In this document: positions 35,725 through 64,000 of the stretch, in pieces
How the letters are laid out: the number at the start of each line of letters is the position of its first letter
Numbering within the stretch: position 1 is the stretch's first letter
Assembly (NCBI RefSeq): GCF_000195295.1
Contig: NC_015388.1
Span: 248,001-312,000 of the forward strand
DNA length: 64,000 bases
Direction: 5' to 3'
Source of the DNA: Desulfobacca acetoxidans DSM 11109
Lineage (GTDB): Bacteria > Desulfobacterota > Desulfobaccia > Desulfobaccales > Desulfobaccaceae
Position numbers and translations under genes: made by a program
The notes under the pieces: generated by a model
Database searches by the model: none
Told to the model about the DNA's origin: nothing
What the model saw: only the letters and a program-made list of their open reading frames with translations

Positions 35725-35794
35725 AACTTCCTCCCCCAAATTAAGTGGTGAGTTAACTTCTTTACGGCATCTTATGAACTTTTCTTGAGCGGAA

Positions 35795-38381: not shown

Positions 38382-38709
38382 GTTCTCTCCCCAAAAGTGT
38401 GATTGAACTGATTGATCCGGTACCACATACCTCTAGATTTCGATCTCAAGGGTTTCCGGCTGTTCTTGAACGGGGGCTCACAGCAACCGAGAGCTAATAA
38501 TTACCTGGTAACGGCGTGGTTTCACTTCCTGGCCGACCAGGCTTTCAGGCGGCGACCCGAAAACAGCGCACCCTCTCCGGCCACCGCAAGCGAAACAGAT
38601 AACGGCGGCTCGATCTCCAGGTGACACAATGTTGTTCGAATTTCAGTATAACTGCGGGAAGGTCTTCGATTTCTATCAGTTGTTTCAAGACCCCTCATTT
38701 CACTAAGGT

Positions 38710-47333: not shown

Positions 47334-48695
47334 TTATTTTTTTAATGCATGATACATAATTAAACTTTTTAAGGGTATTTCAACTGCAAACCCCAGACAG
47401 GCGGCCCAAGCAGCTCCTAATAAACCGAATTTTTTAATTAATACGAATGAGGCAATACAAATCGTAAATACTGATATTAGAGTAAGGGGAACCTGTATGC
47501 GAAAATATCTTACCGCCGACATGGCGTATCCGAGAAAAGATGAGACGTAATAGATTCCGCCAGCTAACATCACCCAGACCAAAACACCCTGATAGGAGGC
47601 ATACTCTTGACCGAAAAAAAGCTTTAGAATCTCCCAACCGAACAATGCAGCAACCAGAATTCCGCCAACGCCCAGTAGGAGGCCGATGAGCACGAGCTTA
47701 AGTAAGAATTTTATGAATTCCCCGTACAGTTCTGATCCATAATATTTTGCCATCCGGGGGTATGCGGCACTTCCCAGGGCTGTTACTACCATGGTGCCCA
47801 TGGCCATGATCGAACTGATTGCTGCATAGATACCTAGAGCTCTTTCACCCAAATGATTTTCAATGAAAAAACGAGGAATATTTGTTTTCAATGAGATTAA
47901 CATCATAACGAATCCCAGGGGCAGGGATAGCCAAATTAAACGTCCCAATACGTTGGCATCAAAACCTGTTTTTATCATCCTTGGCCAATTAAATTGTTCA
48001 TTATTTCTTGTTTCACTATATGTGATAGAATTCTCTAAAAATAATCTGCCACTGGGAATATCATAAGTCACCAGAATCAAAGCCCATATTACTACTAATC
48101 CTATCACCCCAAATAACATCTGGCCCGTTATTAAAATACCTAAAAAAAGGGCAATAACAGACAATGGACCCTTAATCATCATCGAAATTGAAAGCCGATC
48201 CATCCGTTCGTGCTTTTGGAGTAATCCAAAGTATACATCACTAATTGATTCTATTATCTTAGCTATACCTATTGTAATAATTATTAGCTGTGTTTCAATT
48301 TTATAATTAGCATATATACTTATAGCGACAATAACAATAAGTGCAATGAAACCACTTATAAGCCGCAAACATAAATAATTACCAAAACTATATTCATTAG
48401 TTGTATCTGTTCCAAGGACAACCCGAAGTTGTAAATTTGTAAACATGACTACTGGTGTAGAAATAGCTAATCCTAATGCGAATTGTCCTACAACGTCCGG
48501 GGACTTCATTTTCGCTATCACTACCAACATAACCCATTGGCAGCCGGCATAAACTATATTACCGAATAAAATATATAAGAAGTTTATTCGTAAAGGTAGT
48601 TCGGATAGAAAATGGCTCTTATTCGTATTGCTTGCAACCCCCGATTTATAGCGACGGCAACATAATAGTATTCTGGATAGGACATTGTCTTTCAT
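47334..48695 (-). CDS. Polysaccharide flippase (Wzx/MATE-like)
   Basis: A 453-residue integral membrane protein with about 12 hydrophobic segments, predicted to move lipid-linked repeat units across the inner membrane. The opening part (LRINFLYILFGNIVYAGCQW), charged loops between pairs of helices and the MVVTALGSAAYPRMAKYY block in helices 7-8 are typical of the polysaccharide transport family. It is placed with a Wzy-like polymerase and a Wzz-type protein, completing a Wzx/Wzy system. Codon use is AT-rich. Confidence 0.85.
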   Translation of the reverse strand: MKDNVLSRILLCCRRYKSGVASNTNKSHFLSELPLRINFLYILFGNIVYAGCQWVMLVVIAKMKSPDVVGQFALGLAISTPVVMFTNLQLRVVLGTDTTNEYSFGNYLCLRLISGFIALIVIVAISIYANYKIETQLIIITIGIAKIIESISDVYFGLLQKHERMDRLSISMMIKGPLSVIALFLGILITGQMLFGVIGLVVIWALILVTYDIPSGRLFLENSITYSETRNNEQFNWPRMIKTGFDANVLGRLIWLSLPLGFVMMLISLKTNIPRFFIENHLGERALGIYAAISSIMAMGTMVVTALGSAAYPRMAKYYGSELYGEFIKFLLKLVLIGLLLGVGGILVAALFGWEILKLFFGQEYASYQGVLVWVMLAGGIYYVSSFLGYAMSAVRYFRIQVPLTLISVFTICIASFVLIKKFGLLGAAWAACLGFAVEIPLKSLIMYHALKK

Positions 48696-48883: not shown

Positions 48884-50455
48884 TCAGTTTTCCTTTAAAG
48901 CCGTTAAGCCCTCGCCTGAACGCCGGTATGCATTGGCGCATTCAGGGCATTTCGCCGTGTCTCCCTCAAACTTCAGGGTTTTCCCGCACTTGCAGGCCCA
49001 ACCGATCTGCCTGGCTGGCACCCCCACCACGATGGCATAGTCTGGGACATCCGTCTTTACCACCGCTCCGGCGCCCACTAGACAATATTTGCCGAGGGTA
49101 GTGCCACAAACCACGGTGGCATTGGCGCCGATAGTGGCTCCCTTTTTTACCAGGGTGTCCAGGAATTCACTTTTCCTCTCAATAAAAGCTCTCGGATTAT
49201 AGACATTCGTAAAGACGCAGGATGGCCCGCAAAAAACCTCCTCCTCCAAGTGTACGCCTTTATAAAGAGAGACATTGTTTTGGATTTTGCATCTAGCCCC
49301 CAGACTTACCTGTGGACCGATGACTACATTCTGACCAATAGTGCAGTTTTCACCAATTCGGGAATCCTTCAGCACATGGGAAAAGTGCCATATTTTAGTA
49401 CCCTTGCCGATCTGTACGCCGTCGTCGATAAAAGAACTTTCATGCACAAAGTAGGATCGGGCAGGTTCCACGGCGGCAGGTTTGATGAGGGTTAAATCTT
49501 TCTCTGCAATCTCGAGTATCTTTAGTACTCTGAGTCCCTCTGCCCCGTCCGTCTTTGGTTTCTTTCTCGTTAAGACACATTCGATAAAATGTTGCATTTC
49601 GGCTTTGAGTGGTTCGGCCTTCTCCAGAGAGACGGGTTCGTGCTCCGCCTTTTCCGCCACCGGGATTTTGCCTTCTTTCCACTGGATCTTGTGGTGATAT
49701 AATTTCAGTTTTTCCTCACTTACATCATCAAACACCGCCATAGCTTTGGAACCGACCACCACGAGTTTTTGTTCCTTGAAGGGATGGAGCCAATTGACAA
49801 AAATATGTCCTTTGACACCGTTATTAAAATCCATAGTTGTCAGCGTGGTGTCATAGATTCCCTGGCTCACATAGGCCCCGCCAAAAGCTGATACCCTAAC
49901 CGGCTCCTCTTCCAGCAGCATGAGAATAACCGAGATATCGTGGGGGGCGAAACTCCATAAGATATTTTCCTCAGTTCTTAGTTTGCCGATGCTGAGCCGG
50001 TTGGAGTAGATATATTGGAGTTTGCCAAGTTCACCGGCGGCGATGAGTTCTTTAAGCCTAGATACAGCCGGATGATATTGCAGGATATGCCCAACCATGA
50101 GAATCCGCTGGTTTTTCTGGGCCAGGTGGACGAGTTCCTCTCCCTCCTTAACGGTGAGGGCCAGGGGTTTTTCTACAAAAACATCTTTACCGGCATTGAG
50201 AGCTAGTTTGGTAAGCTCGAAATGCTTTGCCGCCGGCGCCGCTATAGCAATCGCCCGTATCTCTGGGTTCTGCAGCAAATCGCCAAATGACTGGGTATAC
50301 TCGACCTGAGAGAACTGCTTTCTTCTTTGGGCTATAGTTTCCGGATCGGAATCACAAGCGGTATGAAGGGCACCCAGGTCATAAAGATTGCGGAGAATAT
50401 TTTTCCCCCAATATCCAAGTCCTATTAAACCGATGCATTTTTCTTGAGTTGTCAT
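48884..50455 (-). CDS. WbpB-WbpD-type fusion: sugar-acid oxidoreductase + N-acetyltransferase + zinc ribbon
   Basis: A 523-residue fusion. Residues 1-325 are a Gfo/Idh/MocA NAD-dependent oxidoreductase (GLGYWGKN at 12-19, EKPLAL at 95-100) like WbpB/WlbA, which oxidises C3 of UDP-GlcNAcA. Residues 335-485 are a left-handed beta-helix acetyltransferase (hexapeptide repeats IGENCTIGQNVVIG, VVCGTTLGKYCLVGAGAVV) like WbpD/WlbB. A C-terminal CKCG...CPEC zinc ribbon follows. Together they fit steps 2 and 4 of UDP-GlcNAc3NAcA synthesis; step 1 is the next gene upstream. The aminotransferase for step 3 is not adjacent. WbpB and WbpD are separate proteins in Pseudomonas. The pathway is inferred. Confidence 0.83.
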   Translation of the reverse strand: MTTQEKCIGLIGLGYWGKNILRNLYDLGALHTACDSDPETIAQRRKQFSQVEYTQSFGDLLQNPEIRAIAIAAPAAKHFELTKLALNAGKDVFVEKPLALTVKEGEELVHLAQKNQRILMVGHILQYHPAVSRLKELIAAGELGKLQYIYSNRLSIGKLRTEENILWSFAPHDISVILMLLEEEPVRVSAFGGAYVSQGIYDTTLTTMDFNNGVKGHIFVNWLHPFKEQKLVVVGSKAMAVFDDVSEEKLKLYHHKIQWKEGKIPVAEKAEHEPVSLEKAEPLKAEMQHFIECVLTRKKPKTDGAEGLRVLKILEIAEKDLTLIKPAAVEPARSYFVHESSFIDDGVQIGKGTKIWHFSHVLKDSRIGENCTIGQNVVIGPQVSLGARCKIQNNVSLYKGVHLEEEVFCGPSCVFTNVYNPRAFIERKSEFLDTLVKKGATIGANATVVCGTTLGKYCLVGAGAVVKTDVPDYAIVVGVPARQIGWACKCGKTLKFEGDTAKCPECANAYRRSGEGLTALKEN

Positions 50456-50493: not shown

Positions 50494-51804
50494 TTAAGCC
50501 TTGATTACCTTGTCCGAAGGTATCTTTATAAGATTTCTGGTATCCACAATCAATTGAGAGTGCGCTACCAAAAAACCAGGGTCATAGACAGAATGATCAG
50601 TAGTAATTACGACACAGTCATATGCCTGGAGGTTGTCGGGAGTGAGTTCGATGGAACGGGTATTAAATTTATACCTTCGAGTTACCGGGACCACGGGAAT
50701 GTAGGGATCATTATAATCCACTCTCGCTCCACGGGCTCCTAAAAGTTCGATGATTTTGAAAGCAGGAGTTTCCCGAGCGTCATCAACGTCCTTTTTATAA
50801 GCTATGCCGAGGACCAAAATTTTGGCTCCTTTCATTGGCTTGCCACAATCGTTGAGGGCTACCATGACCCGTTCAACGACAAAATATGGCATATTGATAT
50901 TAATATCGCCGGCTAATTCGATGAACCTGGTGCTAAAATCATACTGTCTGGCTTTCCAGGTCAGGTAAAAGGGATCGATGGGAATACAGTGCCCGCCCAA
51001 TCCCGGTCCGGGATAAAAGGCCTGAAAACCGAACGGCTTGGTTTTGGAAGCCTCGATGACCTCGAAGATATCTATCCCCATGCGCAGGCAGAGCATTTTT
51101 AATTCATTTACCAAGGCGATATTAACCGCCCGATAGGTATTCTCTAAAATCTTGCTCAGTTCCGCCGCTCTTGTAGAAGAAACTGGCACCACTCGGTCAA
51201 TTATCTGATTATACAGAGCCACCCCGTGTTTTAGACAGTCATGAGTGATGCCCCCCACCACTTTTGGGATAGTTCGAACTTCAAATTGGGTATTACCCGG
51301 ATCTTCCCGTTCCGGGGAATAAACCAGATAATAATCCTCGCCTACTCGGTATTTATCGGGCAACATGGGCAACATGACTTCATCCGTGGTGCCGGGATAG
51401 GTGGTAGATTCCAATGAAATAAGTTGACCAGGACGCATGGCTGCAGCGATAAGTTTCGTTGTATTTACCACATAGGTTAAATCAGGTTCCCGATTGGCGT
51501 CCAGCGGGGTAGGGACACAGATCAGTAAAATATCAGGTTCACCTAAACGCCGCATGTCAGCCGTTGCTTCAAACTGCGTCTGTCCACTGCGGCTTTGACG
51601 TAATTTCGCAATCCCCGTACCGGGAATATGTTTGATATAGGATTCTCCCTGATTGAGCATTTCCACTTTACGCGGGTCCAGATCAAAGCCAAGTATCCTG
51701 AATCCCACTTCACCGAAGCGCAAAACTAAAGGCAGTCCCACGTAACCCAGACCGATAACCCCGACAAAAGCTTGTTTCTGAGAAATCTTTTTGAGCAATT
51801 CCAT
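50494..51804 (-). CDS. wbpA: UDP-N-acetylglucosamine 6-dehydrogenase (WbpA-type)
   Basis: An NAD-dependent dehydrogenase of 436 residues that oxidises C6 of a UDP-HexNAc to the uronate. The Rossmann motif is IGLGYVGLP (17-25), the catalytic cysteine is Cys273 in GLGGHCIPIDP, and the ENTYRAVNIALVNE helix and YKKDVDDARETPA signature of the UDP-sugar dehydrogenases are present. The 40-nt gap to the WbpB-WbpD fusion and the use of its product there support UDP-GlcNAc over UDP-glucose as substrate; the latter is an alternative. Confidence 0.85.
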   Translation of the reverse strand: MELLKKISQKQAFVGVIGLGYVGLPLVLRFGEVGFRILGFDLDPRKVEMLNQGESYIKHIPGTGIAKLRQSRSGQTQFEATADMRRLGEPDILLICVPTPLDANREPDLTYVVNTTKLIAAAMRPGQLISLESTTYPGTTDEVMLPMLPDKYRVGEDYYLVYSPEREDPGNTQFEVRTIPKVVGGITHDCLKHGVALYNQIIDRVVPVSSTRAAELSKILENTYRAVNIALVNELKMLCLRMGIDIFEVIEASKTKPFGFQAFYPGPGLGGHCIPIDPFYLTWKARQYDFSTRFIELAGDININMPYFVVERVMVALNDCGKPMKGAKILVLGIAYKKDVDDARETPAFKIIELLGARGARVDYNDPYIPVVPVTRRYKFNTRSIELTPDNLQAYDCVVITTDHSVYDPGFLVAHSQLIVDTRNLIKIPSDKVIKA

Positions 51805-51901: not shown

Positions 51902-52909
51902 TTAGGATAAATAATATTTCTTATACCAATCGATAAATTTCCTGATGCCAACCTCGATAGGGGTTTGAGGTTTAAAACCCACGGCCTGCATCAGGTCATC
52001 GATATCAGCATACGTTGCCGGTACATCCCCCGGTTGCATAGGCAACATATTTTTTACTGCTTTTTTACCCAGGGCGTCCTCAATGACATTGATAAAATAC
52101 ATGAGTTCCACCGGATTGTTATTGCCGATATTATATAATTTGTATGGGGCGTAACTGCTGGCAGGATCAGGGTTATCACCCCGCCACCGCGGATTCGGCT
52201 CCGGCAGGTGGTCCAAGACCCTCCTGACCCCCTCCCCAATATCGTCTATATAGGTGAAATCTCGCTGCATTTTGCCGTAATTAAAGACATCGAGGGGCGT
52301 CCCTGATAAGATTGCCCGGGTAAAAAGAAAGAGGGCCATATCCGGTCGTCCCCACGGACCGTAAACCGTAAAGAATCTGAGGCCGGTAGTTGGCAGGCCA
52401 TACAGACTGGCATAGGTATGCGCCATCAATTCATTCGCTTTTTTCGTAGCAGCGTAGAGAGACATGGGGTGATCGACATTCTGATGCACTGAAAAAGGCA
52501 TATTGGTATTGGCCCCATAAACGGAGCTGGAGGAGGCAAAGACGAGATGCTTCACCTGTTGGTGACGACACCCTTCCAGGATATTTAAAAACCCAAAGAC
52601 ATTGCTTTCGACGTAGGCATAAGGATTGGCCAGGGAATATCTTACACCAGCCTGCGCCGCCAGATTAACCACCATATCAAATCGGTGTCGGGCAAAGAGG
52701 TCGGCCATTCCTCGTTTATCAGCCAGGTCTAATTTGATAAATTCAAAATTGCCTCTCTCAATCATCTTTAATCGGTCGATTTTTAATTGCGGATCATAGT
52801 AATCATTCAGATTATCGATACCAATGATTTGATCACCCTGTTGCACAAGTCTTTGCGCCAGATGTGCTCCGATGAAGCCAGCCGCGCCGGTTATCAATAT
52901 TTTTCTCAT
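51902..52909 (-). CDS. UDP-glucuronate 4-epimerase-like SDR
   Basis: An extended SDR epimerase of 335 residues that probably interconverts UDP-GlcA and UDP-GalA (or the acetamido forms). The NAD motif TGAAGFIG is at 7-14, catalytic Tyr152 and Lys156 lie in YAATKKANE, Ser/Thr in FASSSSVYG (about 125-133), and [14 protein letters not shown] follows the active site as in CapI/LspL proteins. This supplies a second uronic acid for the polymer. It sits between wbpA and the 4,6-dehydratase. Confidence 0.85.
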
Positions 52910-52954: not shown

Positions 52955-54883
52955 TTAATGTTGAGGAGGTGAATAGTTTTTAATAAGAATTTTAAATTTA
53001 TCTATCAGGTTCTCTGCATCCCCTCGACGGACAATGCATTGAATATCATCTAAATGCCTCTCCCACACATCTTTTGACTCTACCGATCCGATGGCATAAT
53101 CGATGAGTGGGTGATGCGAGGGTTGAGAAAGCTCTCCCTCGTTAAAGAGCTCCTCATACATTTTTTCTCCCTCCCGCAGACCGGTATATTTTATGGCAAT
53201 ATCTTTTCCGGGGGTTTTGCCAGCCAATAAGATAAGTTTTTCCGCCAGCTCCCGGATTTTCACCGGGCGGCCCATTTTGAGGACAAAGATATCTCCGCCC
53301 TTGCCCATATAGGCAGCCTGCAGGACAAGTTGCACCGCTTCCGGAATGGTCATGAAAAATCTTTCAATCTCCGGATGGGTGACATACAAAGGACCACCCT
53401 GGGCCAACTGGGTTTTAAAGATCGGAATAACGCTGCCAGCACTCCCGAGGACGTTACCAAACCTGGTAATGATAAACTTCGTGGTGTCACTATTCCCATT
53501 GCAGGCCCGGACATACTGTTCGGCTAAATGTTTACTGGCTCCCATAGCACTGGTAGGATTGACGGCTTTATCAGTGGAGATCATGACAAAATATTCTGTC
53601 CCGGTTTTCAGGGCAGCATTCACTAGATTGCGGGTGCCTAAAATATTATTATAGGCTGCTTCTATCGGACAGCGCTCCATTAAGGGCACGTGCTTATATG
53701 CGGCGGCATGAAAGATTATCTCCGGCTGGTACTTCTGCAATAACAGATTCAATCCCGGTGCATCGTTAATGCTGGCAATCAGGGCTTCGATGGCGGTATC
53801 AGGATAACGCCGTTTTAAGGCCAGTTCGGTTTCATACAGGCTATTTTCGTTGCGTTCCACCATGAGTAGTAGCTTGGGCTGGAATTGTGCCAGTTGACGG
53901 CATAACTCTGATCCGATAGAACCTCCGGCACCGGTGATCAGGACACTTCTTTGATGAATGAAGTCCCGCACCTGATCTCGTTCAATGTAGATGGGCGGAC
54001 GGGGCAGAAGATCCTCCAACTCTATATCACGGACGTCCGCCATCCGGAAACGTCCGCCGATAACTTCGCTTAAAGAAGGAATTTTTTTGAACCGCACCTG
54101 CGACCGTTTGCATTCTTCGATAATATCACTAAGCTGATCCTCAGGAGCATCCGGCCAGGCAAAGATAATTTCCTGCACCATACTCTTTTCCACGGCGCGC
54201 GCAATCTGCGGGATTCCTCCTACAATGGGTACGTCGTAAACCCGATAGCCCCTCATCTTGATGTTCGGATCGATCACCGCCACTGGCAGATACTCACCAC
54301 CATGGGCCAGCATCTCCCGAATGATGGGTTCTGTCTCCATTACCGGACCTACCAACATCACCCGCTTGGTATTGGAACTTCCGTCCGAGAGTCGATATCG
54401 CTCCCGAAAATGCCGTGCCGCAAAGCGGGCCCCACCGCTGAGAAAGACAAGCAGCATACAGTTTAAGGCAAATATCGAGCGCGGCGTGTACCCTAAGTAG
54501 GGACTAAGAAAAAAATCCAAAACCACCAGAGTGAGCATACTCATCAGGGAGGCACGTAAGATATTCTGCAGGTCGGCAAAACTCACATATCGCCAGAGAC
54601 CACGGAAAAGGTCATGATAAAGAAAAAAACCCACCTGGACAACGAGCACCACCGGCATGGTCCGTATCATGATTGCCATATAGGCTTCCGGTATCAGACC
54701 TTCAAAACGTAAGTAATAGGATGCCCAGTAGGCCAGACAAAATATGGCAAGATTGAATAATATTACTGCTGCATATTTGTATGGTAATATTATTGCTAAC
54801 AATTTATCTGTTATTCTATTTCGAACTATTAATTTCATTTCATTACATACTTTTACATTAAAATGTGGTAACATTATTCTCAA
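52955..54883 (-). CDS. Membrane NDP-HexNAc 4,6-dehydratase (WbpM/PglF-type)
   Basis: A 642-residue protein predicted to convert UDP-GlcNAc to the 4-keto-6-deoxy sugar. Four N-terminal TM helices (about 30-150) anchor it. The second Rossmann domain has ITGAGGSIGSELCRQ (about 314-328), and the active site reads STDKAVNPTSAMGASK with Met in place of the usual Tyr of YxxxK, a feature of this dehydratase group. Later PRF-type steps are supplied by the DegT aminotransferase and the PglD-type acetyltransferase upstream in the operon. The start could also be the ATG at 54838, which removes 15 residues. Length is typical for the family. Confidence 0.87.
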   Translation of the reverse strand: MRIMLPHFNVKVCNEMKLIVRNRITDKLLAIILPYKYAAVILFNLAIFCLAYWASYYLRFEGLIPEAYMAIMIRTMPVVLVVQVGFFLYHDLFRGLWRYVSFADLQNILRASLMSMLTLVVLDFFLSPYLGYTPRSIFALNCMLLVFLSGGARFAARHFRERYRLSDGSSNTKRVMLVGPVMETEPIIREMLAHGGEYLPVAVIDPNIKMRGYRVYDVPIVGGIPQIARAVEKSMVQEIIFAWPDAPEDQLSDIIEECKRSQVRFKKIPSLSEVIGGRFRMADVRDIELEDLLPRPPIYIERDQVRDFIHQRSVLITGAGGSIGSELCRQLAQFQPKLLLMVERNENSLYETELALKRRYPDTAIEALIASINDAPGLNLLLQKYQPEIIFHAAAYKHVPLMERCPIEAAYNNILGTRNLVNAALKTGTEYFVMISTDKAVNPTSAMGASKHLAEQYVRACNGNSDTTKFIITRFGNVLGSAGSVIPIFKTQLAQGGPLYVTHPEIERFFMTIPEAVQLVLQAAYMGKGGDIFVLKMGRPVKIRELAEKLILLAGKTPGKDIAIKYTGLREGEKMYEELFNEGELSQPSHHPLIDYAIGSVESKDVWERHLDDIQCIVRRGDAENLIDKFKILIKNYSPPQH

Positions 54884-55014
54884 GCATTCAATTAGCAGGC
54901 TTTAATAGTTCCATCAGAGACCGAATATTAATCAATCTAATATTGTCGCGCAAATTACCTTAATATTGATCACAAGCAAAAGCAGTTTTCTGCGAGTTAA
55001 ATAATATCTCCAAT

Positions 55015-56520
55015 TTAATCAGGGATATATTGATTTAGAATTGGTATTAAACTATTGGCAAATGCCGTTAGTCTCTGCTGAGCTTGATCAGTATTACCAT
55101 GGATGGGTATTGTTAACCGAATCAGAGAGCCATCGGTGCGCCGGCGGAGCAGGCCATCGTAAGCCATGAAAAATTTATTCAGGGTTTCGTCTACCAACCA
55201 CCGTCCTCGTTGCATAAACCAGTAGTAGACCAACAACTTGGTGCCTAAGCGGTCAGTTACCATCCAGTTGACCGGTTTTCCGGGTGCGATTTCAATGACC
55301 TTAGCCTGTGCTATCCGCCATCCGCTGGCCGTGAAGCATCCTTTGGGAGAATGAACGAAACCACCGGCTTTTTTTTGGGTTTCATAGTAGGCAATCCAAA
55401 GCGTAATGAGGTCACCCTCCGGGTCGGAAAATTCTGCATAGAGGTGAGCATGCGATTTGGTTAGCGCTACCATAGCAGGATCGATATAGGCGTGGTGACC
55501 CTGCCAGGTATCGATGTTCATGGGAAAATTTTCAAACCCCTTTTTCAACGGATAATTGGGAGCATGCGAGGCGCGTTGGGCTACCGGAGTACAGAGGAGA
55601 ATTACCCCCACTGCAGCAGCCGTATAAGACCACAGCGGCAAAGATTTTTTTGGCGGAGGCTGAATCTTATCCTCCTCGGGAGCCTGTTTAACCGAGGGAG
55701 GACTCAGCCGATTTAGCAGATAATTTACGACAGCAAGCATCACGAAGCAAAAAAGAAAAATGAGCCAGCCGGAAAAGGCATGCCAGAAACCTTCTACCAG
55801 AGCGGGAAAGATTCCCATTCCAGCAACCCGGAGACCATTGGCAAAAATAGTAGCCGGGATCAAGACAATCAGCAAGACCAGAACCTTCCAAGGCTTTCTC
55901 TGGTAAAAATAGCAATAGATAACTCCTAGGGCCAGCAAGGCCAGGATATAGCGCAGACCGCTGCAAGCATCGACAATCTGCATCTGGCGTAACCCAAGAT
56001 CAATAATATTTCCCTGCCGCAAAACGGGGATGCCGATCAGATGGAGAAAAAATGCCGCTAATTGTGAAGAAATCAACTGCAGAGGTAGGGTAAGTTTATT
56101 CGTTATCAGCTCGGGCAGCGGAATCATCAATAACAACAACAAAAGCGGAAATATGAGCAGACGCAGTAATCTCCAGCCCCCCACCAGCAGTAAAATCCCG
56201 CCGAGGCACACCACGAACGAGACCCGCGGGACATAAAGGTCTGCCGCCAGTTCCCCGATGATGCTCAGGCCTATCCCGGCCACAATAATTGCCAGACCCC
56301 ACCAGGATGGTCTCCAGGAGGTTCCCCGGATACGCGGCCATTTCTGATATACCAGATAAGCGCTCACCAAGGGAAGCAGGAGTCCGTAGGAATAATCATC
56401 ATTGTGAAATAAATATAAAAACATTCGGGACAGAATTGGCCAGTAAAACCAAATGGTAATCGCACCAAGGATTGCCAATGAGGAGAGAGGGTATACCGCA
56501 GAGCTTTTATTATTCTGCAT
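55015..56520 (-). CDS. Exosortase fused to EpsI domain (XrtD-like)
   Basis: A 501-residue membrane transpeptidase-like protein that should process C-terminal sorting signals of exported proteins. The N-terminal 270 residues contain about eight TM helices with the exosortase triad: Cys186 in VDACSGLRYI, Arg231 in NGLRVAG, His247 in GFWHAFSGW. After a charged linker and one TM (about 298-315), the EpsI domain follows (about 320-495: SPKGCFTASGWR, VYYWFMQRG). A single fused protein of this length resembles the VPLPA-CTERM exosortase XrtD. No target with such a tail is visible here. It overlaps the acetyltransferase gene by 11 nt. Confidence 0.88.
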   Translation of the reverse strand: MQNNKSSAVYPLSSLAILGAITIWFYWPILSRMFLYLFHNDDYSYGLLLPLVSAYLVYQKWPRIRGTSWRPSWWGLAIIVAGIGLSIIGELAADLYVPRVSFVVCLGGILLLVGGWRLLRLLIFPLLLLLLMIPLPELITNKLTLPLQLISSQLAAFFLHLIGIPVLRQGNIIDLGLRQMQIVDACSGLRYILALLALGVIYCYFYQRKPWKVLVLLIVLIPATIFANGLRVAGMGIFPALVEGFWHAFSGWLIFLFCFVMLAVVNYLLNRLSPPSVKQAPEEDKIQPPPKKSLPLWSYTAAAVGVILLCTPVAQRASHAPNYPLKKGFENFPMNIDTWQGHHAYIDPAMVALTKSHAHLYAEFSDPEGDLITLWIAYYETQKKAGGFVHSPKGCFTASGWRIAQAKVIEIAPGKPVNWMVTDRLGTKLLVYYWFMQRGRWLVDETLNKFFMAYDGLLRRRTDGSLIRLTIPIHGNTDQAQQRLTAFANSLIPILNQYIPD

Positions 56521-57181
56521 ACATGGCTACCTTAAAATGAGAAGAGTGGTTTTGTCTGATAATGCGCGCTGGCACGCCCACCGCGGTGCAATGCGCCGGG
56601 ATATCATCTATAACTACGGCGCCGGCGCCGATGGTAGCGTAGGCACCAATTGTTTTGCCAGGAATGATGATCGCCCCGGTCCCGATAAATGCGCCTTCCT
56701 CAATAGTGACATGGCCCGCTAGGTTGCAGCCGGGGGATATTTGGGCATAACTGTGAATGATATTATCGTGATCTATGGTGGCGCCGGTATTAAGAATAAC
56801 ATAATCTCCCAAAAGGGTTCCGGTATTAATGATAACCCCAGGGGCAATGAAATTTCCCATCCCCATCTGGATCCGGGGGGAGATGACGGTTAAAGGGTGG
56901 ATAGCATTGATAGGACCGTGATTGCAATGTTGCTGCACCATACTGGCAATCTTTTTCCGATCGTGATTATTGCCGATAGCCACAAAATATTCCAAGGACT
57001 TATCTGCTAAAATGGGCGCAGAATCGGAAATCCGCCCGAAAATCGGGTAACCGTGCAGGAAAACGCCCTGTAAATTCGGATCATCATCAAAAAAACCTAA
57101 AACATCCCTGCCGGCGGCCTCCAATATTTCCAGGCAGACCCGGGCATGTCCCGAAGCCCCGATGATAAGTACTTTACTCAT
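56510..57181 (-). CDS. NeuD/PglD-family sugar acetyltransferase
   Basis: A 223-residue enzyme predicted to acetylate the 4-amino group of a UDP-sugar. The N-terminal nucleotide-sugar binding domain has IIGASGHARVC (6-16). From about 100 the hexapeptide left-handed beta-helix begins (IAPGVIINTGTLLGDYVIL), with candidate catalytic His138 in TIDHDN, as in PglD. It sits between the FemAB-like gene and the exosortase, within reach of the 4,6-dehydratase and DegT aminotransferase, the other two steps to UDP-diacetylbacillosamine. It could act on another amino sugar. Confidence 0.83.
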   Translation of the reverse strand: MSKVLIIGASGHARVCLEILEAAGRDVLGFFDDDPNLQGVFLHGYPIFGRISDSAPILADKSLEYFVAIGNNHDRKKIASMVQQHCNHGPINAIHPLTVISPRIQMGMGNFIAPGVIINTGTLLGDYVILNTGATIDHDNIIHSYAQISPGCNLAGHVTIEEGAFIGTGAIIIPGKTIGAYATIGAGAVVIDDIPAHCTAVGVPARIIRQNHSSHFKVAMYAE

Positions 57182-57201
57182 AATTCCTGGTGAACCCTGA
57201 A

Positions 57202-58278
57202 TTATTGAGGAAAGCGATATAAGGGGAAAAAGACATCATGGCCCTGAAATTCTCCGGACGGAAAGCGAAGCTTGCATAGATAGTTATAATCATCAGAACG
57301 GTGAATGACACCAGATATACAATATTTTGTTTTTTTTGAAGAAAAAGATGACTTGAAGCAGGACAGGCTATCATTGGGTTGATATCCCCCCCCCAAATGA
57401 AGATATTTAAACCCCTGCTGCTTGGCCCAGAGAGCAACTTCATAGAGCAGTAGATTATTGCCAGCCAACTGCCTCATCTCAAACAATGAACCTGATAAAA
57501 AATAGTGAATATAGCTTCGACAAAATATAAAAATAGCTGAATTAATAATGTTATTTTTATAATATGCATGAAATAATGCATTGTTATTGTTCAATAATCT
57601 TCTTAAAGAATTAAACCAATTCTCAGAAAATTTATAATATTTGTGAGCTTTTAATCGATACATGGTCTTAATATATAATTCATAAAAATTTTTTAAATTG
57701 TCATAATTATCATCTTTTACAATTTTGATATTATTATTTATTGCCTTTCTAATTTTATTTCTACAAGTTGGTTCAAAATCTTTCCATATTGTATTGCTGT
57801 CGTTAGTTAAGTCAATGGTAACCGTTTCCCGTGATTGGGTTATTTTAATGTCTTGAGGCGCATATAATGCATTGTTTATGATTGGATGAAATCTGATAAA
57901 TTCTGAAACGATATGTTGACTCTGGCAGTAATTGTTAAAATAATTAGCAAATATTTCCATATTTACATTACTACTATTGCGCAGATACCCTCCGTAGCCA
58001 TACGGCGAAGCTATGTCAAAGTAATCGGCGATTGTGGTGTGAAAATTGTCGAGTTCTCCAATAGGCCGCTTCAAAAATGGGTAGATCGCCAGGTCCGACT
58101 CTGATTGATGGTAAACAAATAAATACGGCTTGCCATCACCGTGCAATTCAAAGAGGTGGGCGTATTCAGGGAAGAAAAAGATATCTATATCCTCAAAGGA
58201 ATCGCATATTGTCTGCCATTTTTGTCTTTCCAGAGGATTGTCGTACGCTAATATTTCCCAGTACGGCATTTGGTTCAT
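57202..58278 (-). CDS. FemAB-like GNAT-fold protein
   Basis: A 358-residue protein with the double GNAT layout of FemAB-like acyltransferases often found in exosortase loci. Seen: the N-terminal half (DIDIFFFPEYAHLFE, GYGGYLRNSS), the central TCRNKIRKAINNNI helix, and a C-terminal LLLYEVALWAKQQGFKYLHLGGGY block with GNAT strand features. No catalytic residue can be named. The AT-rich codon use differs from the flanking genes, so it may have entered by exchange. The start overlaps the stop of the DegT gene (ATGA at 58275-58278). The substrate could be an amino sugar in the repeat. Confidence 0.65.
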   Translation of the reverse strand: MNQMPYWEILAYDNPLERQKWQTICDSFEDIDIFFFPEYAHLFELHGDGKPYLFVYHQSESDLAIYPFLKRPIGELDNFHTTIADYFDIASPYGYGGYLRNSSNVNMEIFANYFNNYCQSQHIVSEFIRFHPIINNALYAPQDIKITQSRETVTIDLTNDSNTIWKDFEPTCRNKIRKAINNNIKIVKDDNYDNLKNFYELYIKTMYRLKAHKYYKFSENWFNSLRRLLNNNNALFHAYYKNNIINSAIFIFCRSYIHYFLSGSLFEMRQLAGNNLLLYEVALWAKQQGFKYLHLGGGYQPNDSLSCFKSSFSSKKTKYCISGVIHRSDDYNYLCKLRFPSGEFQGHDVFFPLYRFPQ

Positions 58279-59399
58279 TCGAGGATTGCTCGGCTTATTT
58301 TGATTACTTCAAAAACCATCGCTTGGGTCATATGCGAAAACAAAGGCAAAGCCAAACCTGAAGCCGCCGCCGCCTCAGTCACCGGCAACTTCCCCCGGTA
58401 GAATTGCCCCATCGTCTGATAGACCTTCTGCAGATGCAGGGCGGGAAAGAAATATTTTTTGGCCTGAATCTGATGCTCTTTGAGATATTGATAGACTTCA
58501 TCCCGACTGTGTTTGGCCTCCTGACCGTCTATAAAGATGGTAAAGTAGTTACCGGAGGATTGATACCCTTCCGGGGTTTCTTGAAACCTTACTCCTTTCA
58601 GCCCCTTGAGACCTTCCCGGTAGATCTGCATTAATTCTTGGCGACGTGATATCAGATGCTCTCGGTGGGCAAAGTTATAATAGGCGACAATAGCATCGAC
58701 TTCCGGGACACGGGCAGAAAGTCCCAGCCAAGCGATATCTTCGGCATCCGGAGTCTTCCCATAATCCCGCATCTGCCGGAGAGTTTGGGCTAATTCGGCA
58801 TTAGATGTAGTAACCAGTCCTCCCTCCATGGCGCTGATTACCTTAGTAGGACTCATAGAAAAAATCTCCGCTTCGCCAAAACTGCCGGCATATCGCCAGA
58901 CGCCGTTGCGGTCAAGATATCTGGACCCCAAACCCTGAGCAGAGTCATAGACCAGGTGTACGCCATGCTCCCTAGCAATCTCTGCAAAGGCTTCATAATC
59001 AGGGGGGCAGCCAAAGACATTCACCGGCATAAGCACCGACGTCCGGGGAGTGATAGCCTGCACCGCCTTTTCCGGGTCCAAGGTGTAGGCACCCGGGCTT
59101 ATATCGGCAAAGACTGGGATCAGATTATTCCAGACCGCCGCATGAGCCGTCGCTGTCCATGTGAAGGCCGGCATAATAGCTTCTCCCTCTACTTCCAAAG
59201 CTCGCAGCACCAACATTAAGCCTGCGGTGCACGATTGCATCATAATAACGTGGGGAATTTCCAGTTGTCGCTCAACCTCCGCCTCCAAACGCCGGGTAAA
59301 CTGACCGGTAGTTACCTGTCCGCTCTCCCAAGCCTGGCGAAAATCTCTGATGACGGCGTCCCAGTTCATAAGAGTCGGTTTAACAATAGGAATCATCAT
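58275..59399 (-). CDS. DegT/DnrJ/EryC1/StrS-family sugar aminotransferase
   Basis: A PLP-dependent transaminase of 374 residues that aminates a keto-sugar nucleotide. I start at ATG 59399, just after AAAAGAAG; an earlier TTG-type start at 59435 adds 12 residues. The PLP lysine is Lys186 in FSMSPTKVISAMEGG, and PLP-contacting Asp152 is in LVYDSAQGLGSR. It is most likely the PglE-like step between the dehydratase and the PglD-like acetyltransferase. It could also supply the missing amination for the WbpA/B/D branch. The gene is coupled to the FemAB-like gene downstream. Confidence 0.85.
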   Translation of the reverse strand: MMIPIVKPTLMNWDAVIRDFRQAWESGQVTTGQFTRRLEAEVERQLEIPHVIMMQSCTAGLMLVLRALEVEGEAIMPAFTWTATAHAAVWNNLIPVFADISPGAYTLDPEKAVQAITPRTSVLMPVNVFGCPPDYEAFAEIAREHGVHLVYDSAQGLGSRYLDRNGVWRYAGSFGEAEIFSMSPTKVISAMEGGLVTTSNAELAQTLRQMRDYGKTPDAEDIAWLGLSARVPEVDAIVAYYNFAHREHLISRRQELMQIYREGLKGLKGVRFQETPEGYQSSGNYFTIFIDGQEAKHSRDEVYQYLKEHQIQAKKYFFPALHLQKVYQTMGQFYRGKLPVTEAAAASGLALPLFSHMTQAMVFEVIKISRAILE

Positions 59400-59498
59400 A
59401 TTCTTCTTTTCGGCAAAGCTCGTTCTTAAAACCAATGATTATTAAAGTCGGCAAACCTGGCAGGGAAGAAAAATGCTGCACGGAAAATATGGCCTCGT

Positions 59499-60113
59499 TC
59501 AGGTCGCTGGCACTCTTGAAGGTCGAAAGTCATAGTTAATGCCGTCTGGTCCATAAAGACCTTCGCGGCGAATAACGGTTCCAATAGTACGGCCCAAAAT
59601 CTGGACATCTAATTTCAGAGACCAGTTGTCTACATACCAGATATCCAACTTAATCCGCTCCTCCCAAGGAATGGCGTTGCGCCCGTTAATTTGCGCCCAA
59701 CCGGTAATCCCTGGCTTCATTGCCAAACGCCTCCGCTGGAATGCATCGTAGGCTACAACCTGATAACGTAAAGTGGGACGCGGACCGATAATGCTCATTT
59801 CACCCCTTACAACATTGAAAAGTTGGGGAAGCTCATCCAGGCTGGTGTTACGCAAAATTTTACCTACCGCAGTAATACGGTCGTCATCTACCGCTATATT
59901 CAAACCCAGGCCTTTACTGGCGGCATTATCAACCATAGTGCGGAATTTATAGGAAGTAAAAGGTTTACCGTTTTTCCCGATCCGCTCCTGGCGGAAAAAA
60001 GCGGGACCGGCACTGTCAATTTTTATAATTCCGGCAATGATCCAAAAAATTGGACTTAAGAGAATGAGAGCACCCCAAGACAGGCAGAAGTCGATGAAAT
60101 TTTTGATTCTCAC
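59499..60113 (-). CDS. Initiating sugar-phosphate transferase (PglC-type)
   Basis: A 204-residue monotopic phosphoglycosyl transferase that attaches the first sugar phosphate to undecaprenyl phosphate. A single N-terminal membrane segment (about 10-31) is followed by [18 protein letters not shown] (43-60) and the catalytic Asp93-Glu94 pair in [11 protein letters not shown]. The GPRP and [12 protein letters not shown] motifs are intact. The small size fits PglC rather than the larger WbaP/WcaJ type. With the dehydratase, aminotransferase and acetyltransferase in the same locus, diacetylbacillosamine-phosphate is the expected substrate. Confidence 0.9.
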
Positions 60114-60191: not shown

Positions 60192-61331
60192 TTAAGGTTT
60201 CTTCCACCATCGCCCCCACCAGGGTGTGGGTTTTTCCTGAACCGGTTCGCACTCCGCTACTTCTAATGTGTTTGGCGGCGCTGCAATTGGCTCGGAGGAT
60301 GGCAGTTCTGGCGCCCCTGGCTCCGTTCTGGCGAAGAATTGAGTTATAAGCGGAATCAAATGATTATTGATCTCCAATACCAGTCCTTCCAATCGGGTCA
60401 GCCGACCGGCTAAATCAGTGAGCTCAGATGACAAACGCTGACTGTTTCCCCCGGTCAACTCCCCTCCCTGAGTTGGGGGGGAACTCCCATCGTCCGTCGC
60501 CCTTCTACACCCTTCTTCATCCTCTCCTTCGAGGGTTCCTCCCTGTGAAGCCACCACAGTATCGATGAATTCGGCATCAAGTTCCTGCCGGCTCTCGGCA
60601 AATCCGGCTACTAAAGCCAGATCGCACCAAGCATTGATGCGTCTCGGCACCCCTCGGGTGTATTCGTAAATCCGATCAAGCGCCGCCTCGGTAAATATGC
60701 TGCTGCCGCCCGCCCGATGGATGCGAAATTTAATATATTCCCGAGTCTCAAGCCGTTCGAGGGGCCGCAGGTGATAGTGAACAGCAATCCGCTGAGCCAG
60801 TTGGCGGAGGCTGGGGTGCTTGAGCTTGTCCCGCAATCCGGGTTGGCCAACTAAAATAACCTGCAGGAGAGGGTCCTTACCGGTCTGCAGATTTGACAAG
60901 AGACGCAATTCCTCCAAGGCTTCGGGTCCCAGATTCTGGGCCTCATCTACCAACAGTACCACATGCTCGCGCCGGGCATAGGCTGAAACCAGAAATTGAT
61001 TAAAAGCGGCCAACCGGGCGGCTCGACTGCTAAACCTGCCGCGCACTTCAAATTCCTGCAATAACAATTCCAGGAGATCCTCAGCTCCCACCGAAGTCTG
61101 ATAAAGAACCCCCAGTCTATGGTTACCGCTATAATTTTTGAGCAAAGACTTGATCAGGGTTGTTTTGCCTGCGCCGATCTCTCCGGTAAGCACGACAAAT
61201 CCTACCTTTTGGCTAATCCCGTATTCCAAGTAAGCCTTGGCCAGCTTATGCTGGGGGCTGAGATAAAGGTAGTCAGGGTCGGGAATCAGATTGAACGGGC
61301 GTTCGCTTAATCCATAAAAAGCTTCATACAT
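60192..61331 (-). CDS. ExeA-like AAA ATPase of the exosortase/EPS locus
   Basis: A 379-residue AAA+ ATPase of the general-secretion ExeA type, common in exosortase loci. Walker A GEIGAGKTT lies at 50-58 and Walker B VVLLVDEAQ at 124-132, followed by SNLQTGKDPLLQVILVGQP (sensor-1 region) and RGVPRRINAWCD (sensor-2). The N-terminal FYGLSERPFNLIPDPDYLYLS is typical. After about 265 comes a low-complexity linker and a short coiled segment, ending in WWGRWWKKP. It starts 7 nt after the BY-kinase-like gene and probably assists export or chain control. Confidence 0.87.
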   Translation of the reverse strand: MYEAFYGLSERPFNLIPDPDYLYLSPQHKLAKAYLEYGISQKVGFVVLTGEIGAGKTTLIKSLLKNYSGNHRLGVLYQTSVGAEDLLELLLQEFEVRGRFSSRAARLAAFNQFLVSAYARREHVVLLVDEAQNLGPEALEELRLLSNLQTGKDPLLQVILVGQPGLRDKLKHPSLRQLAQRIAVHYHLRPLERLETREYIKFRIHRAGGSSIFTEAALDRIYEYTRGVPRRINAWCDLALVAGFAESRQELDAEFIDTVVASQGGTLEGEDEEGCRRATDDGSSPPTQGGELTGGNSQRLSSELTDLAGRLTRLEGLVLEINNHLIPLITQFFARTEPGAPELPSSEPIAAPPNTLEVAECEPVQEKPTPWWGRWWKKP

Positions 61332-61338
61332 AATAACA

Positions 61339-62247
61339 CTATCCGAAAATTCTAAATTTGGATTTCTTGGGCTCTCTTGATTGATAATAGTCGTAGTAAC
61401 TTCCCTGATCTTTTTTCTTAACTTTATTCAAAACTAGGCCTAACAGGTTAAAGTCTTTTAGCATCTCAATTCCTTGTTCTATCTGGTCGCATCTGGTGCG
61501 CCCCGCTTCCACTACCATAACTATGCAGTCCATCAGCGGCGCAAAAGCCAAGGCGTCAGCATACGACAATAAGGGTGGTAGATCAAACAGTACATAACGA
61601 TCTTCATAACAGTGCTTCAATTCTTGCACCAGATCCACCATCTGCGGCGATTTAATAAGTTCGGCAGCGTCACCTGTAGCCCTGCCCGCCGGTAAGACTA
61701 CCATTTTATCAATACCTTCAGGGTGAATCAATAATTCAGGAATAGGAATTCCGTCTTTAAGATAATCTACCAGTCCTCTTCGAGGTGAGAGTCCCAGGTA
61801 TCTATGTATGGTAGGATTTCTAAGATCAGTATCAACAAGTAATACTGTCTTATCGATTTCTTGGGCGATACTGATAGCTATATTGAGAGTAGTTAACGTT
61901 TTCCCTTCATTTAATTGCGGACTGGTAAACATAATTGTATTATAATTATTCTTTTTTGTTTTATGGATAATATGTGTCCGCAATAACTTATATTCCTCGG
62001 TAATATCAGGAAATTCATCTCCTACTATTATATAATTTTTAGCTAATAATTTCATATCAACCGGATATGTTTTGGTTGTCGTATAGCAAATATCTTTAAC
62101 CGGTCCGGCATAACCCACAGACCCTGCTACCGGCAGAGGCTTCCGGGAATTTTCAGCCCAAGGAGCTTTTATATCCTCTTCCACCTTAGGTTTATCCTTC
62201 TGGCGCGCCGCCTGAGCCCGTTCCAAAGCTTTATCGATAAAACTCAA
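61339..62247 (-). CDS. BY-kinase/CpsD-like tyrosine kinase domain
   Basis: A 302-residue cytoplasmic P-loop kinase of the capsule-regulating type. Walker A is in SPQLNEGKTLTT (109-120, Lys116), Walker A' in VLLVDTDLRNP (135-145), and Walker B in YVLFDLPPLL (218-227). The C-terminus has a tyrosine cluster SYYDYYQS (about 283-290), the likely autophosphorylation site. The N-terminal 90 residues (MSFIDKALERAQ) resemble those of XrtA-locus kinases. It acts with the upstream Wzz-type membrane protein to set polymer length. Confidence 0.87.
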   Translation of the reverse strand: MSFIDKALERAQAARQKDKPKVEEDIKAPWAENSRKPLPVAGSVGYAGPVKDICYTTTKTYPVDMKLLAKNYIIVGDEFPDITEEYKLLRTHIIHKTKKNNYNTIMFTSPQLNEGKTLTTLNIAISIAQEIDKTVLLVDTDLRNPTIHRYLGLSPRRGLVDYLKDGIPIPELLIHPEGIDKMVVLPAGRATGDAAELIKSPQMVDLVQELKHCYEDRYVLFDLPPLLSYADALAFAPLMDCIVMVVEAGRTRCDQIEQGIEMLKDFNLLGLVLNKVKKKDQGSYYDYYQSREPKKSKFRIFG

Positions 62248-62310
62248 GGTTTACCCCCCTGCAAAATGGAAATGCCTATATATCCTAATCCGATTAATTT
62301 GCCGGTAAAT

Positions 62311-62361
62311 CCAGATCTCCGAGTCTGGCGAGAAAAATATCGGTCAGACCAAGAGGTCTGA
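62311..62361 (+). repeat. Dispersed repeat family 3, copy 2
   Basis: CCAGATCTCCGAGTCTGG is followed by CGAGAAAAATATCGGTCAG and AGAGGTCTGA, matching 48761-48812 with scattered changes. It lies in the 236-nt gap between the Wzz and BY-kinase genes. Confidence 0.6.
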
Positions 62362-62426
62362 CTTACCGGATCTTCCATTATAATGCTCATTACCTGTCCG
62401 TCACCCGCGAACCCTGCGGATAGGCT

Positions 62427-62480
62427 GGCGGCAATTTGCCGGCTCCAATCCGTTTAACCCGGAACTCAAAACTTATTTTC
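62427..62480 (+). repeat. Dispersed intergenic repeat family 1, copy D
   Basis: Shares its first 20 bases (GGCGGCAATTTGCCGGCTCC) exactly with 16821-16840 and continues CCCGGAACTCAAAACTTATTTTC. It lies just past the stop of the Wzz gene (minus strand), so it could sit in that transcript's 3' end. Confidence 0.65.
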
Positions 62481-62483
62481 CTA

Positions 62484-64000
62484 CTAGATAGATTTGTTTG
62501 CCAGTCTCAGCAGGCGAGCTGTTACTACCCAGAGGTCCATATAAAAGAAATGTAAAAAAACAATAACAAGTAGTAAGGATAAACCACTGGCCGCCAGAAT
62601 AATCCAACGGCGCTTTTTTATTAAGTTAACTTCCTCGGTGTGTTGCATGCTGCTTATGGTGCCTAATATCGGTAATTCGGTCAGCCAAGCCAACTCATCA
62701 GCGTCCTTCACCGATTGATCGAGCTGATCGGTCGCTATTACTAAGCCGACGCCAGCAGCGAGACCCAATAATAATCCAACCGCCATGATAAGGATGCGAT
62801 TGGGCGAAACCGGTTTTTCCGGGAAACTGGCGGGATCAATAAGAGTGAACTTTTCGGCTTTCTGGTGTTCTTCCATGCCTTCGGCGATGCGGGCGGTTAA
62901 AAGTTTATTCATGACCTCCTGGTATTTATTATGGGAGTTTTGATAGTCCCGCATCAGGGCTATATATTCCTGCTCGATTTTAGGGGTCGCCTCCAATCGT
63001 TCCCGATAGATTTTAACTTTTTCGCGTAGATCAGCCTGTTGCTTTTTTAGCATGGCAATTTCATTATCCGCCGCCTGGATATTGGCGTTGATACCGATAT
63101 AGGAGGGATTATTGGGATTCAAGATAGGTCTGGCAGGTACTTCAGCCACATCTTTTTCTTGCTCTAATTGAGCGATAGTTTTCTGAAGTTTCTTGATTTC
63201 AGGATGTTCAGCAGTTAATTTACCTTGTTTTTCAGCTAACTCCAACTGCAAAGCCGCCAGTTTTTGCCTTTTCACCGAAGCACCGCCTCCCTGGGCGCCT
63301 ACCAATTTCTCCAATTCGACAATCTCACGTCTGATTTTTCTGACATCAGGATGATCTTCAGCATGATTGGCCAGGGCTGACTGCAGCATCACCCTTAACA
63401 TATAGAGCCGGGCCTTCGGATCCATAACTGACTCTTGCCCTACAATCGGCAGGTCAGGATTGATGGTGGCTAATTGCCCTTCCAAATACGTTTTACGATC
63501 CACGATTGCCCGGAGTTGATTGTCGATCTGTTTGATCTCATTTTCCAGCCGTTCGGCCTGAGAGAGGTTATGCGCTTTTAATTCTGGAAGGGTATGTTCA
63601 TGTTTTCCTTTAAAATCTGAAACTTTATTTCCGATGCTAGATAATTGCTCTTCAAGTTGTCTTAGCTCAGCTTCAAGAAATTTTGTCGTGGTTTCAGCTT
63701 TTTCCTGCCGATCCTTGAGGTTCTGCTCCAGATAAAGAGAGGCCAAGTTTCCCGCAACCTTCTGTACGACAGCAGGATTCTGTCCCCGATAAGCGATGGT
63801 AAAGGCAATCGTCATACTATCTTTGCCGGAACGTTTGCCTTTCTGCCCCAAATCTGCGCTTATGGTATCTATAGCAATATCATTGCGCATCTTATCGATT
63901 ATTTCTTCTTGAGTAAATTTTTCCCGAAGATTTTGATAGAGATTCATCTGTTTGATGATCTCCCAAAGTTTAGTCCGAGACAAAATCTGTTGAGTAATGC
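62484..64000 (-). CDS. Polysaccharide chain-length determinant (Wzz/GumC-type), 5' end outside the window
   Basis: An inner-membrane co-polymerase that sets polysaccharide length and interacts with the BY-kinase. The frame is open to the window edge (ITQQILSRTKLWE precedes the first start codon), so the N-terminal TM is not seen. About 505 residues are present: a Wzz region (FTIAYRGQNPAVVQKVAGNLASLYLEQ), long coiled coils (about 95-375 as numbered here), the conserved PxxP-like ASFPEKPVSPNR before TM2, then TM2 (MAVGLLLGLAAGVGLV) and a further TM near the C-terminus. The coiled-coil length resembles XrtA-locus determinants. It is the first visible gene of the operon. Confidence 0.88.
   Translation of the reverse strand, partial: ITQQILSRTKLWEIIKQMNLYQNLREKFTQEEIIDKMRNDIAIDTISADLGQKGKRSGKDSMTIAFTIAYRGQNPAVVQKVAGNLASLYLEQNLKDRQEKAETTTKFLEAELRQLEEQLSSIGNKVSDFKGKHEHTLPELKAHNLSQAERLENEIKQIDNQLRAIVDRKTYLEGQLATINPDLPIVGQESVMDPKARLYMLRVMLQSALANHAEDHPDVRKIRREIVELEKLVGAQGGGASVKRQKLAALQLELAEKQGKLTAEHPEIKKLQKTIAQLEQEKDVAEVPARPILNPNNPSYIGINANIQAADNEIAMLKKQQADLREKVKIYRERLEATPKIEQEYIALMRDYQNSHNKYQEVMNKLLTARIAEGMEEHQKAEKFTLIDPASFPEKPVSPNRILIMAVGLLLGLAAGVGLVIATDQLDQSVKDADELAWLTELPILGTISSMQHTEEVNLIKKRRWIILAASGLSLLLVIVFLHFFYMDLWVVTARLLRLANKSI

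Follow-up and report, generated by a model that had tools for sequence, protein, structure and literature searches.

A Desulfobacca acetoxidans gene block predicted to make and use a bacillosamine-type sugar encloses a FemABX-like gene and an exosortase gene

Which sugar is made, and how is it used, by a block of polysaccharide genes that also encloses an exosortase gene? The question is raised by positions 60113-52955 of a 64,000-nucleotide stretch of Desulfobacca acetoxidans DSM 11109, here called the window (bases 248001-312000 of the 3,282,536-base single-contig genome). An initial annotation had picked out four genes there, for a PglF-type 4,6-dehydratase, a PglE-like aminotransferase, a PglD-type acetyltransferase and a PglC-size initiating transferase. 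It read them as a complete set providing UDP-N,N'-diacetylbacillosamine (UDP-diNAcBac) as the first sugar of a Wzy-dependent exopolysaccharide with exosortase linkage. All four genes are present where they had been placed, on the minus strand. We consider it rather likely that the block makes and uses a bacillosamine-type sugar; its most interesting part is a FemABX-like gene that lies inside the set and was absent from that list. The genes of the block are, in the order in which they are read:

59499..60113, minus strand: small monotopic phosphoglycosyl transferase, predicted to be initiating (TIGR03025 282 bits; cut-off of 295.55 not reached)
58275..59435, minus strand: DegT/DnrJ/EryC1/StrS sugar aminotransferase that groups with DesI; C4 is its predicted site of action (profile, PDB and tree evidence)
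57202..58278, minus strand: FemABX/VimA-like protein, predicted aminoacyl-tRNA-dependent transferase (Pfam, F308-K309, fold)
56510..57181, minus strand: NeuD/PglD-family sugar N-acetyltransferase (TIGR03570)
55015..56520, minus strand: XrtD-type exosortase with EpsI domain (TIGR04152 406.4 bits, over the cut-off of 400; TIGR02914 116.7 bits, cut-off 42.8)
52955..54883, minus strand: PglF/WbpM-type 4,6-dehydratase (TDK at residues 437-439; 5bju match)

No gap between adjacent genes exceeds 131 bases, and some of them overlap, so it is plausible that the block forms one transcription unit; promoter and terminator scans were uninformative (44 vs 35.8 and 21 vs 16.5 in shuffles). In the pathway we propose, the dehydratase would convert UDP-N-acetylglucosamine (UDP-GlcNAc) to UDP-4-keto-6-deoxy-GlcNAc, the DegT enzyme would place an amine on C4, with a predicted equatorial (D-gluco) configuration, and the NeuD/PglD-family protein would acylate that amine. 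The small phosphoglycosyl transferase would then move the sugar phosphate onto undecaprenyl phosphate, so that a Wzx/Wzy-type exopolysaccharide made beside the exosortase would start with this sugar. The FemABX-like protein would probably add an amino acid to the sugar, either acylating N4 or at another position. Of these elements, there is good support for the route to a UDP-2,4-diamino-trideoxy sugar, and diNAcBac as the first sugar is plausible; the exosortase may further link proteins to the product.

 The dehydratase has its best PDB match in 5bju (284 bits; "WlaL", which we take to be PglF) and carries the TDK motif at residue 437, and is accordingly classed as a PglF-type 4,6-dehydratase. 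The acetyltransferase is of the PglD type at the family level, scoring 221.4 bits against the NeuD/PglB/VioB model TIGR03570 (cut-off 160.8). Among solved structures it is nearer to perosamine N-acetyltransferase (149 bits) than to a pilin glycosylation protein (114 bits) or PglD (about 84 bits), and by analogy we presume H138 to be its candidate catalytic residue. The initiating transferase is indeed of PglC size, with the DE dyad (residues 93-94) and the PRP motif (residue 111) of its family.

The nature of the sugar hinges on the aminotransferase, and here two lines of evidence point to DesI. The best NCBIfam model was PLP_DesI (228.9 bits, with the cut-off of 650 not reached), followed by LegC at 141 bits, and the best PDB match was 2po3 (165 bits), ahead of WbpE (92.6 bits), 1o61 (59 bits) and 4ztc (54.7 bits). 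We take 2po3 to be DesI, 1o61 and 4ztc to be PglE, and 2oga to be a C3 enzyme; the C4 and C3 labels of these PDB references are likewise our assumption. The candidate pyridoxal phosphate lysine is K198, within SPTKV. In a tree of 26 rows, the window enzyme and five orthologues joined the row G398_AT (support 100/100) and then DesI and its relatives (98/96), while WbpE and 2oga fell in another clade (100/99) together with a second D. acetoxidans protein, encoded at 2.92 Mb, that paired with WbpE (100/100). As far as sequence grouping goes, this shows that the window aminotransferase is not a WbpE; its predicted action at C4 is based on how close it lies to DesI and on the company its gene keeps.

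A survey of the rest of the genome and of related genomes was consistent with this assignment. Ten DegT matches were found in the D. acetoxidans genome: four are weak, the other six represent five DegT proteins, of which one is split in two, and the window holds just one of the matches (58275-59435). The protein at 2.92 Mb scored 399 bits to WbpE, vs 92.6 for the window enzyme. Searching 99 genomes, our own included, we recovered orthologues of the window aminotransferase at 64-72% identity in seven others (G001, G003, G004, G005, G006, G008 and G011). Two of the loci are cut at contig ends, and counts below are therefore over the 6 uncut loci, our own included, unless eight are stated. A WbpE orthologue was present as a separate gene in 6/6 genomes carrying the window-type aminotransferase, as was a PglF orthologue (on the same contig as the aminotransferase in 5/6). 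A fusion of WbpB and WbpD, in contrast, occurred in 2/6. The window itself contains genes of the UDP-GlcNAc3NAcA type (51804-48884), downstream of the dehydratase in the same gene run; the initial annotation had not taken them into account, and their WbpA- and WbpB/WbpD-type products require a transaminase that works at C3. Given the tree, the scores and the genomic distribution of WbpE, PglF and the WbpB-WbpD fusion, we favour two distinct sugar routes, the WbpE step of D. acetoxidans being supplied by a gene outside the window. The initial annotation had named action on a 3-keto sugar as the finding that would overturn it; the DesI grouping, the separate WbpE orthologue and the PglF orthologue in 6/6 genomes instead argue for a 4-keto substrate. 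The locus also suggests that a DesI-related aminotransferase can serve in making bacillosamine-type sugars.

We next consider how far the block holds together in relatives. The genes for the small transferase and the aminotransferase are neighbours in 5/6 loci (7/8 with the two cut loci), and XrtD and a FemAB-like gene are each found in 5/6. A clear NeuD domain is present in half of the loci (3/6), and an ATP-grasp protein likewise in 3/6, which suggests that the acyl group on C4 varies among relatives. In G008, the FemAB and NeuD domains are joined in a single frame of 593 amino acids between the aminotransferase and XrtD (PF02388 55.1, PF13480 58.7 and PglD_N 78.2 bits). The WbpB-WbpD fusion was not found in G008 or G003 (unfused WbpB or WbpD genes were not searched for), and a bacillosamine-type sugar is thus the likelier target in these two genomes. 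Because a FemABX-like candidate lies between the aminotransferase and the acetyltransferase, and because ATP-grasp proteins occur in three loci, the original description of four genes as a "complete set" was too narrow.

What might the FemABX-like protein contribute? It passes the Pfam cut-offs for FemAB (PF02388, 33.4 bits; cut-off 24) and also for GNAT_6, and is far below the cut-off of the XrtA-associated FemAB model TIGR03019 (48.5 bits; cut-off 260.35). It is the only FemAB match of the genome, and a profile search of genome contigs with the FemAB alignment returned two Desulfobacca records only. The FK motif F308-K309 is invariant in 6/6 sequences, own included, and K309 falls at about FemX positions 304-305, as judged from the range ends of the VIA alignments; a role for FemX Lys305 and for DhpH-C Phe328/Lys329 is described in PMC12945691. 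A structure model built from four sequences had a mean predicted local distance difference test score of 52.3, with only about residues 150-295 well modelled and the first domain of low confidence. This well-modelled part (residues ~150-295) matched FemX with a Z score of 21.2 (3.1 Å over 171 residues). It also matched the aminoacyl-tRNA-dependent synthases Sba18 and Sbb17, two of these entries being complexes with streptothrisamine (Z about 20). FemA came next (18.1), whereas MprF and general acetyltransferases scored no higher than 15.2. Fold alone shows no function; taken with the sequence matches, these results lead us to predict an aminoacyl-tRNA-dependent transferase.

Published parallels give this prediction a direction. 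Orf11, which belongs to the same fold class and depends on Gly-tRNA, attaches glycine to streptothrisamine (PMC12945691). VimA of the type IX secretion system (T9SS), which matches the FemAB model, decides between Ser and Gly on the linking sugar, according to PMC7468200. The same paper calls the compound to which exosortases attach proteins unidentified, as of 2020, and its authors speculated that VimA-related proteins may make it. The general idea is thus already theirs; what the present locus adds is a specific sugar route, the FemAB-NeuD fusion and a candidate enzyme. In the literature searched, we found nothing joining exosortase with bacillosamine, XrtD or VPLPA-CTERM, nor XrtD with VPLPA-CTERM.

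The exosortase itself has a candidate catalytic triad of C186, R231 and H247, assigned from the motif of its family. A second XrtD-like gene, at 376.9 bits and thus below the cut-off of 400, lies at about 2.44 Mb (L056, genome 2433000-2452000) beside a gene for a large phosphoglycosyl transferase. Searching for exosortase cargo, we obtained 10 weak VPLPA-CTERM matches in the genome and none over the cut-off, with a model that also matched below its cut-off in 5/14 control genomes. In six of the 10, the match lies in a genuine C-terminal tail, where VP[LI]P is accompanied by a hydrophobic stretch and arginines; genes for proteins with such tails are found near 0.41, 0.90, 0.91, 1.51 and 2.85 Mb.

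Several observations weigh against the reading of the block as a bacillosamine-type pathway. The aminotransferase lies outside the PglE subfamily, so that its description as "PglE-like" did not survive at this level (DesI model vs LegC model, and 55-59 bits to 1o61 and 4ztc). In the tree, two ArnB-type rows, which we assume to be C4 enzymes, group on the WbpE side (94/88), and C4 enzymes therefore do not form one clade; moreover, DesI and three other rows are unlike the rest in composition, and own_L010 sits on a very long branch. Among the relatives, PglF is on a different contig from the aminotransferase in G005, and G008 has no small transferase gene beside the aminotransferase. G003 and G008 both carry a WbpE orthologue and may therefore make a Wbp-type sugar. 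G004 has an ATP-grasp protein plus a weak NeuD-like protein (80 bits), so the exchange of one for the other is not strictly exclusive. The initiating transferase is 45.3% identical to PglC (8e37) and 45.1% to the C-terminal part of WbaP. By comparison, for the tested diNAcBac enzyme EpsL the identities are 58-60% with PglCs and 41% with an enzyme for FucNAc (PMC10653937); the 45% of the window enzyme is below the former range and near the latter value.

A wider comparison spoke against a general rule for exosortases. We compared the 40 top-scoring XrtD loci outside the window's order (8/40 span less than 10 kb owing to contig ends, and G083:C254, in the same score range, was left out). None of the 40 carried a gene whose best match was DegT or FemAB. 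This makes it less likely that such a sugar is used by all XrtD enzymes, and we rejected a general tie between XrtD and the sugar set; the tie was seen in this order only (G000, G003, G005, G008, G011), where G007 has XrtD together with a hexapeptide protein and an aminotransferase related to DesI.

FemAB-like genes behaved differently. FemAB matches were found in 72/395 genomes, the window's order included, and we inspected the 26 best-scoring loci outside the order, one per genome, leaving out L115-L117 and G228 (picked because their aminotransferase and FemAB matches are near each other) and G017 (of the window's order). A DegT gene was present in 18 of the 26 loci (16 at ≥150 bits), although several contigs are short, WbpB/WbpD genes in 7/26 and an exosortase in 3/26. 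With 18/26 vs 0/40, FemAB-like proteins accompany sugar aminotransferases generally, whereas XrtD as such does not. This favours a FemAB protein acting on amino sugars, most often perhaps of the Wbp type. Exosortase-like, FemAB-like and DegT genes occur together outside the order in L195, L196 and L197 (G044, G144, G052). In the window's phylum, WbpB, WbpD, DegT and FemAB-like genes stand together, resembling a Wbp/Vim cassette, in L198, L200, L201, L202, L203, L206 and L132.

Three alternatives compete with the proposed pathway. In the first, which we regard as unlikely, the diamino sugar is made in the block but added later by one of the two glycosyltransferases, and the initiating transferase loads another hexose phosphate. 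The enzyme matches WbaP and PglC equally (151 and 147 bits, with near-equal identities) and cannot be told apart by identity from a UDP-Gal enzyme; the claim for a first sugar hence rests on the gene neighbourhood and not on the enzyme's sequence. This neighbourhood, with transferase and aminotransferase genes adjoining in 7/8 loci, is what argues against a later addition. Of the initial claim for UDP-diNAcBac, the route to a 4-amino and 4-N-acyl sugar and its tie to the transferase and XrtD are supported, and UDP-diNAcBac is a plausible candidate for the finished donor.

In the second, which we think quite unlikely, the C4 amine is axial, which would give UDP-FucNAc4N (AATGal), free or N-acylated, for use by a WcfS-like transferase. 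DegT enzymes with both stereochemical outcomes are known; the nearest characterised relative of the window enzyme is DesI, which yields an equatorial C4 amine, and this speaks for the D-gluco form. Small transferases for UDP-FucNAc4N do exist, WcfS being one (PMC12550135), and the near-equal identities to PglC and WbaP leave room for such a donor here.

The third, that the aminotransferase performs the WbpE step on a 3-keto UDP-GlcNAcA from WbpA and WbpB and that the set makes UDP-GlcNAc3NAcA, draws on the WbpA-like and fused WbpB-WbpD genes in the same run and on this enzyme being the sole DegT match in the window, but it was set aside as very improbable given the tree, the 2.92-Mb WbpE orthologue, the orthologues in all six genomes, and the rarity of the fusion, which in G005 (C29:8399-9940, a 61% orthologue) adjoins the WbpE orthologue (C29:6434-7543, a frame with one stop) while the window-type aminotransferase is on a different contig, C57.

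The predicted bacillosamine-type pathway is embedded in a longer run of polysaccharide genes. Before the initiating transferase lie genes of the XrtA-system type, and after the dehydratase the run continues with the second sugar route, export and polymerisation functions, ending in weak candidates for a polymerase, a polysaccharide deacetylase and a methyltransferase-like gene:

60192..63983, minus strand: XrtA-system-like ATPase, tyrosine kinase and chain-length determinant genes (all below cut-off: TIGR03015 307.6 bits, cut-off 324.5; TIGR03018 205.4, cut-off 230.65; TIGR03007 243.6, cut-off 278.85)
51902..52909, minus strand: nucleotide-sugar epimerase-like protein, accessory
50494..51804, minus strand: WbpA/TviB/Cap5O-type nucleotide-sugar 6-dehydrogenase, accessory, separate sugar route
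48884..50455, minus strand: WbpB-type dehydrogenase fused to a WlbB/WbpD-type acetyltransferase, separate sugar route
47334..48695, minus strand: Wzx-type flippase (PF01943 47.9 bits, cut-off 28.2)
46186-47322, minus strand: GT4-type glycosyltransferase
45250-46122, minus strand: GT2-type glycosyltransferase
43723..44964, minus strand: putative Wzy polymerase, weak (PF04932 18.6 bits, below the cut-off of 31.7)
42712..43707, minus strand: polysaccharide deacetylase-like protein, weak candidate for a VimE counterpart (PF01522 24.4 bits, cut-off 23.1; no NCBIfam match)

The distal border of the exopolysaccharide genes is formed, on the plus strand (39333-41573), by a gene for a protein with weak rhamnogalacturonidase and Calx-type matches, possibly a polymer-cutting enzyme. 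Elsewhere in the window, a glycine-repeat, autotransporter-like open reading frame of 3151 amino acids (26347-35802, minus strand) and a similar shorter one (36435-38426) are separated, as judged by eye, by a transposase/integrase-like frame (35830-36489, minus strand), as if a paralogue within 26347-38426 had been broken by insertion.

Finally, we compared the block with known systems. The tested parallel for a diNAcBac-initiated exopolysaccharide is Bacillus subtilis EpsCNM with EpsL (PMC10653937). As in EpsC-EpsN-EpsM and EpsL, a dehydratase, an aminotransferase, a NeuD-type acetyltransferase and a small transferase share one exopolysaccharide operon; unlike there, the D. acetoxidans set has a DesI-like aminotransferase and a transferase with only 45% identity to PglC, and it encloses FemABX-like and exosortase genes. 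The Campylobacter PglF-PglE-PglD-PglC pathway shares the 5bju-matched dehydratase, the acetyltransferase family and the small transferase, but differs in aminotransferase subfamily and in the acetyltransferase, here nearer to perosamine N-acetyltransferase than to PglD, and flippase, polymerase-like and chain-length genes adjoin the D. acetoxidans set.

In Neisseria, PglB2 (ATP-grasp) replaces the acetyltransferase PglB and yields a glyceramido sugar, according to PMC11130364. The relatives examined here similarly differ in what lies close to this aminotransferase, a NeuD-type domain in some cases and an ATP-grasp protein in others, although as separate genes, with one relative holding both kinds and a FemABX-like gene in 5/6 loci. 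With Orf11 and the Sba18/Sbb17 structures, two of which hold an amino-sugar antibiotic intermediate, the second GNAT domain of the FemAB-like protein shares its fold at about 17% identity.

The closest analogy in gene content is with the Wbp/Vim genes of Porphyromonas and Tannerella, where a FemAB-related protein is likewise accompanied by diamino-sugar genes and a sorting system. The D. acetoxidans cluster also shares WbpA and WbpB-WbpD with them, as well as a weak match to a deacetylase. Here, however, the conserved partner is the 2,4-diamino-trideoxy sugar route, an exosortase takes the place of the T9SS, and the linkage is putative. The FK motif, the fold matches and the FemAB-NeuD fusion suggest an aminoacylated bacillosamine-type sugar beside the exosortase, like the T9SS linking sugar. 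That it is the exosortase counterpart of the type IX Ser/Gly linking sugar, built on a 2,4-diamino-trideoxy sugar and not on a diamino-uronic acid, is a tentative and rather doubtful extension. Nevertheless, the locus and its relative with the FemAB-NeuD fusion provide named sugar and enzyme candidates for the exosortase attachment compound.

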